This document shows positions 19,630 to 27,949 of a DNA stretch of 43,231 nt, piece by piece. The notes below the pieces were generated by a model. That model ran no database searches. It was not told the origin of the DNA and saw nothing but the letters and a program-made list of their open reading frames with translations. The stretch is from an archaeon (GTDB lineage: Archaea > Nanobdellota > Nanobdellia > SCGC-AAA011-G17 > ARS1178). Location: NCBI GenBank assembly GCA_002688325.1, contig NZCS01000031.1:1-43231 (forward strand), given 5' to 3'. The position numbers and the translations under genes were made by a program. Positions within the stretch are counted from its first letter, which is position 1; each line of letters opens with the position of its first letter.

Positions 19630-19689
19630 AAAAACTTTATAAAAGCAAAATTCTCTATTATTCTTATGCGCCGATAGTTCAACGGTTAG

Positions 19690-19708
19690 AGAACTAAAAT
19701 TCGACTAA
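19690..19708 (+). other. tRNA-Gly intron 1, 19 nt, position 22/23 (D-arm)
   Basis: A small bulge-helix-bulge can be drawn: central helix GGTT with GACT (two G-U pairs), 5' bulge AG^A, 3' bulge AA^A, inner stem GAA/TTC around loop CTAAAA. The outer helix is weak, so this is a relaxed motif. Excision restores D-stem GTTC/GAAT. The exact cut could shift by one base without changing the product. Confidence 0.75.
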
Positions 19709-19738
19709 AATTCTGGCCTTCCAAGCCAGCGATCCGAG

Positions 19739-19768
19739 AAACATCAGAAAAACTTAGATGTTCGGAAT
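19739..19768 (+). other. tRNA-Gly intron 2, 30 nt, position 53/54 (T-arm)
   Basis: A full bulge-helix-bulge is visible: outer helix CGA/TCG, central helix TCCG/CGGA, 5' bulge AG^A, 3' bulge AT^T, inner stem AACATC/GATGTT with loop AGAAAAACTTA. Cutting two bases into each bulge joins CCGAG directly to TTCGAAT, restoring the T-arm exactly. Confidence 0.88.
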
Positions 19769-19853
19769 TTCGAATCTCGGTCGGCGCATTTTCTTTACTT
19801 TATCAGTTAAATTACCAAAACTATTTAAGTAAACAATATTTACTAATTTTAAA

Positions 19854-20055: not shown

Positions 20056-20077
20056 TTTTTTGGTTAAGCTTTTTTAG
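20056..20077 (+). repeat. Dispersed hairpin/poly-T element, copy A (probable terminator)
   Basis: TTTTTTGGTTAAGC followed by TTTTTTAG directly after a short gene. The same core recurs at 22206-22237, 25075-25107 and 27870-27902 and in variant form at 23281-23321 and 41716-41747. Archaeal termination uses oligo-T tracts, so this copy probably ends the 63-residue gene's transcript. Confidence 0.6.
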
Positions 20078-22181: not shown

Positions 22182-22298
22182 CGGACCCGATGAGACTTTC
22201 TAACCTTTTTTGGTGAAGCTTTTTCCTAAAAAGATTCTTTGAACTCACGACCTACAGATTAGGAATCTGTCGCTCTATCCTAGCTGAGCTACGGGTCC
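22182..22298 (-). tRNA. tRNA-Arg (anticodon CCU) with a 42-nt T-loop intron
   Basis: On the minus strand, acceptor GGACCCG pairs with CGGGTCC, discriminator G, no encoded CCA. D-arm is GCTC-AGCTAGGATA-GAGC, anticodon arm ACAGA-TTCCTAA-TCTGT (anticodon at plus 22261-22263), T-stem GTGAG/CTCAT. The T-loop is interrupted; removing 22196-22237 gives TTCAAAT, a normal seven-base loop. A TATA-like TATAAATTT lies about 20 bases upstream of the 5' end. Confidence 0.92.
22196..22237 (-). other. tRNA-Arg intron, 42 nt, position 59/60, similar to the dispersed hairpin element
   Basis: Bulge-helix-bulge: outer helix is the T-stem (GAG/CTC), central helix TTCA/AGAA with one A-A mismatch, bulges AA^G and AG^T, inner stem AATCTTTTT/AAAAAGGTT with one G-U. 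Most of the intron (22206-22237) aligns with the intergenic element at 27870-27902, sharing AATCTTTTT, AAAAAGCTT and ACCAAAAAA in the same order (minus strand). Confidence 0.85.
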
Positions 22299-23280: not shown

Positions 23281-23321
23281 GTAACTGTAAGCTTTTTTAG
23301 AAAAAAAGATTAAACAAAAAA
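23281..23321 (-). repeat. Dispersed hairpin/poly-T element, copy C (terminator of the lipoprotein gene)
   Basis: On the minus strand, eight bases after the lipoprotein stop codon, there is TTTTTTGTTTAATC, a run of seven T, then CTAAAAAAGCTTACAGTTAC. The T run and A run form a hairpin, and the end AAGCTTACAGTTAC is identical to that of copy D at 25075-25107. Confidence 0.55.
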
Positions 23322-25074: not shown

Positions 25075-25107
25075 TTTTTTGGTTAAGCTTTTTTAAAGCT
25101 TACAGTT
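25075..25107 (+). repeat. Dispersed hairpin/poly-T element, copy D (bidirectional terminator)
   Basis: A run of T, GGT, then TAAGCTTT (25084-25091), TTT, and AAAGCTTA (25095-25102), a perfect 8-bp stem with a 3-base loop, then CAGTT. It lies between two convergent genes ending at 25064 and 25116, where a terminator working both ways is expected. Confidence 0.65.
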
Positions 25108-27869: not shown

Positions 27870-27902
27870 TTTTTTGGTTAAGCTTTTTTTCTAAAAAAGA
27901 TT
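27870..27902 (-). repeat. Dispersed hairpin/poly-T element, copy E (after tRNA-Leu)
   Basis: Starts one base past the tRNA-Leu 3' end. On the minus strand it reads AATCTTTTTTAG, a run of seven A, GCTTAACC and six A. On either strand it shows an oligo-T run with an adjacent hairpin (CTTTTTT/AAAAAAG). It is the closest relative of the tRNA-Arg intron. Confidence 0.65.
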
Positions 27903-27949
27903 ATGTGGGCGACAGGATTCGAACCTGCGTAAGCACTAAGCTAACAGGG

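Follow-up and report, generated by a model that had tools for sequence, protein, structure and literature searches.

The window, by which we mean the whole stretch of 43,231 nucleotides that was analysed, is contig C31 of a draft archaeal genome (606 kb in 36 contigs, 27% GC, 72% complete), and the closest named genome found was that of a Woesearchaeota archaeon (48% identity in one GTPase). On its minus strand, positions 22298-22182 can be read as a complete tRNA-Arg(CCU) gene with a 7-bp acceptor stem, a D-arm, the anticodon arm ACAGA-TTCCTAA-TCTGT and a GTGAG/CTCAT T-stem, and 42 nt (22237-22196; Table 1) split its T-loop behind TTCAAA. Rfam detected the tRNA with 31 bits; ARAGORN called no tRNA genes in the window. 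Without positions 22237-22196 the loop reads as a normal TTCAAAT and the product is a 75-nt tRNA-Arg(CCU) like those of intron-free relatives, which bears out an earlier sequence-only reading of the window that had proposed a 42-nt T-loop intron giving a standard loop when removed. An intron-containing tRNA-Gly-like gene at 19668-19788 (+), whose insertions lie in the D-loop and close to the T-arm, was also recognized by Rfam and not by ARAGORN.

Table 1. Exons, intron and copies of the repeated element in the window.
Feature	Position	Strand	Remarks
tRNA-Arg(CCU) 5' exon, ends GTGAGTTCAAA	22238..22298	-	
T-loop (59/60) intron, 42 nt, GAATC...AGAAAG	22196..22237	-	relaxed bulge-helix-bulge by inspection
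Element copy within the tRNA-Arg intron, AATCTTTTTAGGAAAAAGCTTCACCAAAAAA	22206..22236	-	
tRNA-Arg(CCU) 3' exon (TCTCATCGGGTCCG)	22182..22195	-	
Full element copy	27870..27902	-	about 2 nt past the 3' end of an intron-containing tRNA (ends near 27904)
Full element copy, arm plus core variant (AAGC...GATTAAAC)	23289..23321	+	adjoins the stop codon of ORF 24237-23329 (-)
Core copy (AAAAGCTTAACCAAAA), short arm, between convergent ORFs	25077..25092	-	12 nt from one stop codon, 23 nt from the other ORF
Core copy, no clear T-rich arm	20058..20073	-	12 nt from a called reading frame's 3' end

By inspection, a relaxed bulge-helix-bulge (BHB) can be drawn at 59/60, with a 3' bulge AG|U, a 5' bulge AA|G and then an inner helix, its central helix being UUC:GAA (3 bp) plus an A.A mismatch. 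RNAfold placed an intron stem, AAUCUUUUU/AAAAAGGUU, atop the T-stem (z -3.65); it formed the T-stem and inner helix and left the central 3 bp of the BHB open. The comparison of related tRNA-Arg(CCU) genes that the sequence-only reading had in view yielded about eight, all from other families, that have no intron at this T-loop site. This means that the insertion was either gained in the source lineage or lost in the others.

Most of the intron resembles a sequence found elsewhere in the window. The copy at 27902-27870 (-) is 33 nt long, compared with 31 nt in the tRNA-Arg intron, and the two differ by one T, one A, AGA/AGG and CTTA/CTTC, so that the likeness noted earlier is that of a near-copy with few differences. 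The consensus of the element is AANC-T(4-6)-loop-A(4-6)-GNTTNANC-A(4-6), about 31-34 bp in length, where GNTTNANC is an 8-mer and the loop has 1-6 nt, being longer in relatives of higher GC. Copies were counted by regex scans against reversed-pattern and first-order Markov controls. In the source genome, the 16-nt core AAAAGCTTNACCAAAA occurs exactly 18 times and at up to one mismatch 24 times (0 for the reversed pattern), and the full regex has 27 matches versus 0-1 in five first-order Markov genomes. The 33-mer of 27902-27870 had no match with up to 3 mismatches in 100 shuffles, and it is found identically at two unrelated loci of the source genome (27902-27870 and C25:19713). The genome-wide search for the core thus confirmed a dispersed family; the suspicion that the similarity was just low complexity, which had been tied to unrelated introns in relatives together with a lack of further copies, fails on the copies present throughout the genome.

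Two further features accompany the copies of the source genome. A core variant, CGTTNACG, is often arrayed in tandem with the main core (C6 14655-14573, C6 50545-50500, C13 17031-17080 and C35 2194-2135), and a TAACTGT box lies immediately 5' of many copies (in the window just before 23289 (+), and at C13 27496, C13 33433, C16 6866 and C16 160).

We compared 145 genomes of relatives and, separately, a phylum-level sample of 371, all of them draft assemblies. Among the relatives, the element was counted 60 times in G013, 55 in G030, 22 in G063, 21 in the source genome, 20 in G069, 17 in G049 and 15 in G136; most of the others were near zero, as was the reversed control throughout. At least one copy was present in 95 of the 371 phylum-level genomes, which are not independent of one another, compared with a total of about 11 matches, counted by eye, for the reversed control. 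The family is spread over Woesearchaeota/Pacearchaeota-type archaea, and its copy number is patchy. Each genome or family examined has its own commonest core (GCTTAACC in the source genome, GTTTAATC in G030 and GCTTTACC in family f27), with fixed letters kept across distant lineages and three variable positions. Such conservation is more suggestive of selection for recognition than of purely parasitic descent, and to that extent counts against the reading preferred below. No match to the strict pattern was found in viral contigs, and a looser pattern gave 1-2 copies in each of 17 contigs, which is not distinguishable from chance.

Within tRNA genes the element is found repeatedly. More than 25 other tRNA genes of relatives carry it in D-loop, anticodon-loop or T-loop introns, some of them twice, the D-loop and anticodon-loop cases being in Ser, Glu, His, Asp, Gly and Lys tRNAs (identities assigned by eye). 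A search for TTCRA followed by the element, which can detect sense copies only, added about 15 T-loop introns from the class; all of them carry the element in sense and end in GAAAG|T or similar. All three T-loop introns seen in the source genome contain the element (Arg-CCU, Gly-GCC and Tyr-GUA), and the anticodon intron of its Ser-UGA gene contains an antisense copy. Element density is higher in T-loop introns than between genes (Poisson P 1e-5). The sequence-only reading had asked how transcription passes an oligo-T run inside a tRNA gene; since sense runs of T4-T6 recur in more than 15 T-loop introns, they are evidently tolerated. An unbiased survey, limited to tRNAs with the stem letters GGGTTCRA...GAAAGTCCC, found T-loop introns in 99 of 378 genomes; their bodies are mostly other than the element, and no antisense copies stood out in this list. 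Since 59/60 introns are widespread and mostly without the element, the element does not account for this intron position in general; it occupies some of the introns, chiefly those of lineages with many dispersed copies. The intron may therefore precede the element. Either the element entered existing T-loop introns or it seeded some new ones. A tRNA-Tyr(GUA)-like gene in the source genome (contig C6, locus L077 1380-1516) has two introns, one at the anticodon and one in the T-loop with an element variant.

The element is also found outside tRNA genes. One 23S rRNA gene carries it within a 174-nt insertion, near the region in which archaeal LSU rRNA introns are known (sites near 1923-1931; PMC6125680), and two antisense copies lie in the P3 loop of RNase P RNA. 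A third genome (L250) shows a similar picture, with no Rfam match. Further copies immediately follow the 3' ends of tRNAs. The majority of copies in high-copy genomes are intergenic. A few copies are in frame within proteins, mostly at termini or in charged tails. The tail KPFSEKALPK of a TopA-like protein (identified by eye) contains an in-frame element in two genera (L213 1041-1601 and L278 556-1107), one of which has a second element copy. Two proteins of the source genome (L085, C14 5349-6092 (-), and L105, C35 13240-14502 (-)) have KKEENLLEKDSAKE in common, encoded in both by an identical element copy.

In all five introns that were folded, the T-rich left arm of the element pairs in the minimum-energy structure with A-rich sequence towards the intron's 3' end and not with its own hairpin partner. 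In the tRNA-Arg intron, the partner of the left arm is the second A-run of the element followed by GGTT. Among 136 copies, the N1/N2 stem pair is often mismatched and is never C-G or T-A. On account of these mismatches, and since the hairpin is outcompeted in introns, we make no claim for a conserved RNA hairpin as the unit.

We consider it rather likely that the intron body is a copy of a dispersed palindromic element that lodges in, or seeds, BHB introns. This proposal draws directly on the family and its distribution, the orientation of the copies, the predicted fold and the intron-free relatives. The element is found where extra sequence is tolerated, namely in BHB introns of tRNA, the 23S rRNA insertion, RNase P P3, gaps between genes and protein tails. 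In a tRNA loop, its T-rich left arm and the A-rich 3' end of the intron would form a helix bringing the exon ends together; this would be the inner helix of the relaxed BHB, and the splicing endonuclease could then excise the insert. Since its ends can pair, the element may be pre-adapted to persistence as an intron within tRNA loops. Judging from the folds, an insert with such pairing ends would probably be spliceable. The tRNA-Arg(CCU) precursor is presumably spliced, and insertion is the putative route into tRNA genes. The earlier idea that a mobile hairpin became a tRNA intron thus stands in so far as the intron body is a member of a genuine dispersed family, but not as an origin of 59/60 introns generally. 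We are more tentative about a wider version, which falls somewhat short of likely, in which a short non-coding palindromic element creates tRNA and rRNA introns phylum-wide, the pairing of its ends giving rise to the BHB helix upon insertion.

The reverse direction, in which tRNA introns are the source and moved between tRNA genes, with some escaping to gaps, rRNA and coding regions, seems unlikely to us. Intron transposition is an accepted phenomenon (PMC4033280; PMC4090602), the element is common to T-loop, D-loop and anticodon introns of different tRNAs, and in low-copy genomes many of the copies with a readable context are in tRNA introns. However, the mostly intergenic copies of high-copy genomes have neither intron ends (GAAAG|T) nor an obvious BHB, those in RNase P RNA are antisense, and T-loop introns in the phylum are mostly of other sequence. 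We likewise hold it improbable that the element is a functional 3'-end element (a bidirectional terminator or an mRNA/tRNA 3'-processing site) that came to lie in introns by chance or for processing. Its sense T(4-6) runs, with T-N8-T on the opposite strand, and the copies behind tRNA 3' ends would suit such a role, as would the 16 of 29 intergenic copies of G030 within 3 nt of a stop codon versus 6.8 expected (P<1e-4), a statistic picked post hoc, after the mean distance to stop codons had shown nothing; the TAA of the element is often itself the stop codon there. The mean distance did not differ from random placement, being dominated by a few long spacers that hold unannotated tRNAs. Against this, the effect is weak in the source genome (P 0.03 at 10 nt and 0.29 at 3 nt), three copies of which lie between divergent genes, many intergenic copies are between tandem genes only 6-80 nt apart, the T-runs are often just 4-5, and a strong sense-strand terminator would carry a cost for the more than 15 tRNA genes concerned. 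The alternative offered in the sequence-only reading, that tRNA-derived hairpins spread as terminators, is the less supported of its two, and "terminators" does not cover the family, many copies of which separate tandem genes or lie inside genes for structural RNAs.

A DNA-level motif, either a protein-binding or uptake-type site or a former of intrastrand triplexes, maintained by molecular drive or selection without transposing, is decidedly unlikely, although the fixed core letters, the A-run spacing and the genome-specific core dialects would favour it. A.A-T triplexes are weak, which speaks against the triplex form of this account. In 38 copies with stems of at least 7 bp, the A-run past the core mirrors the purine strand of the stem (mean 2.71 positions versus 1.18 by permutation, P<1e-4), which is the geometry of Y-R-R intrastrand triplexes, where a third purine run mirrors a stem strand (PMC4666352). 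This signal comes mostly from family f27, whose Y stem, R stem and mirrored third run recall the PIT elements, and that of the source genome and G030 was not significant (run-length correlation), so the mirror geometry is a lead only. Unlike PIT elements, the present element is A/T-rich and has a conserved 8-nt spacer, and the signal elsewhere is weak or untestable. That the likeness arose by chance among the A/T runs of a 27% GC genome is almost certainly wrong: the element is indeed A/T-rich, but low complexity is ruled out by the near-zero reversed-pattern and Markov controls.

Rickettsia palindromic elements (RPEs) are short dispersed palindromes that lie between genes and in frame within proteins. 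The element resembles them, and fits an RPE- or REP-like family, in that one genome holds many dispersed short palindromic copies that are mostly extragenic or, when within proteins, in frame; it differs from RPEs in its sequence, in the domain of life and in being also the body of BHB introns. REP/BIME sequences with RAYT (Y1) transposases are short extragenic hairpins often near gene ends (PMC2817692, PMC3116915). The element shares with them the extragenic hairpins, the position often beside gene ends and the genome-specific dialects, but has no consistent Y1 transposase and lies also within tRNA genes. A Y1 (PF01797) transposase was absent from G030, G049, G069, G136 and the source genome (the last being 72% complete), and was found in G011 and G017, two genomes that lack element copies by the pattern used; a REP-RAYT origin was therefore rejected, Y1 presence being uncorrelated with element copies. 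No target-site duplication was obvious in copies looked over by eye, no transposase tied to the element was found, and the filled and empty tRNA-Arg(CCU) sites compared come from different families, so that insertion is a putative route.

The positions (tRNA 59/60 and LSU near 1923-1931, PMC6125680) and the predicted splice geometry are those of known archaeal BHB introns, but here the body is a dispersed genomic repeat. In Thermoproteales, movement of introns between tRNA genes is reported, according to two reviews (PMC4033280, PMC4090602), and similar introns likewise occur in different tRNA species and positions within one lineage; unlike those introns, the present element also stands between genes, within a 23S rRNA gene and proteins, and antisense in RNase P RNA, and its hosts are Woesearchaeota-like DPANN. 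No description of the element was found in the open-access literature searched. Our data suggest that tRNA introns can arise from small dispersed repeats. Being both intergenic and an intron body, the element is a concrete, datable candidate source for tRNA introns, and it makes intron gain testable by comparison of close relatives with filled and with empty sites. tRNA genes split by such repeats may be overlooked when small archaeal genomes are annotated.

T-loop intron bodies without the element also recur among tRNA genes, both within and between genomes, in G074, G054 and G047, in G318 and G254, and in G013 and G042. These may be further intron families that are spreading.
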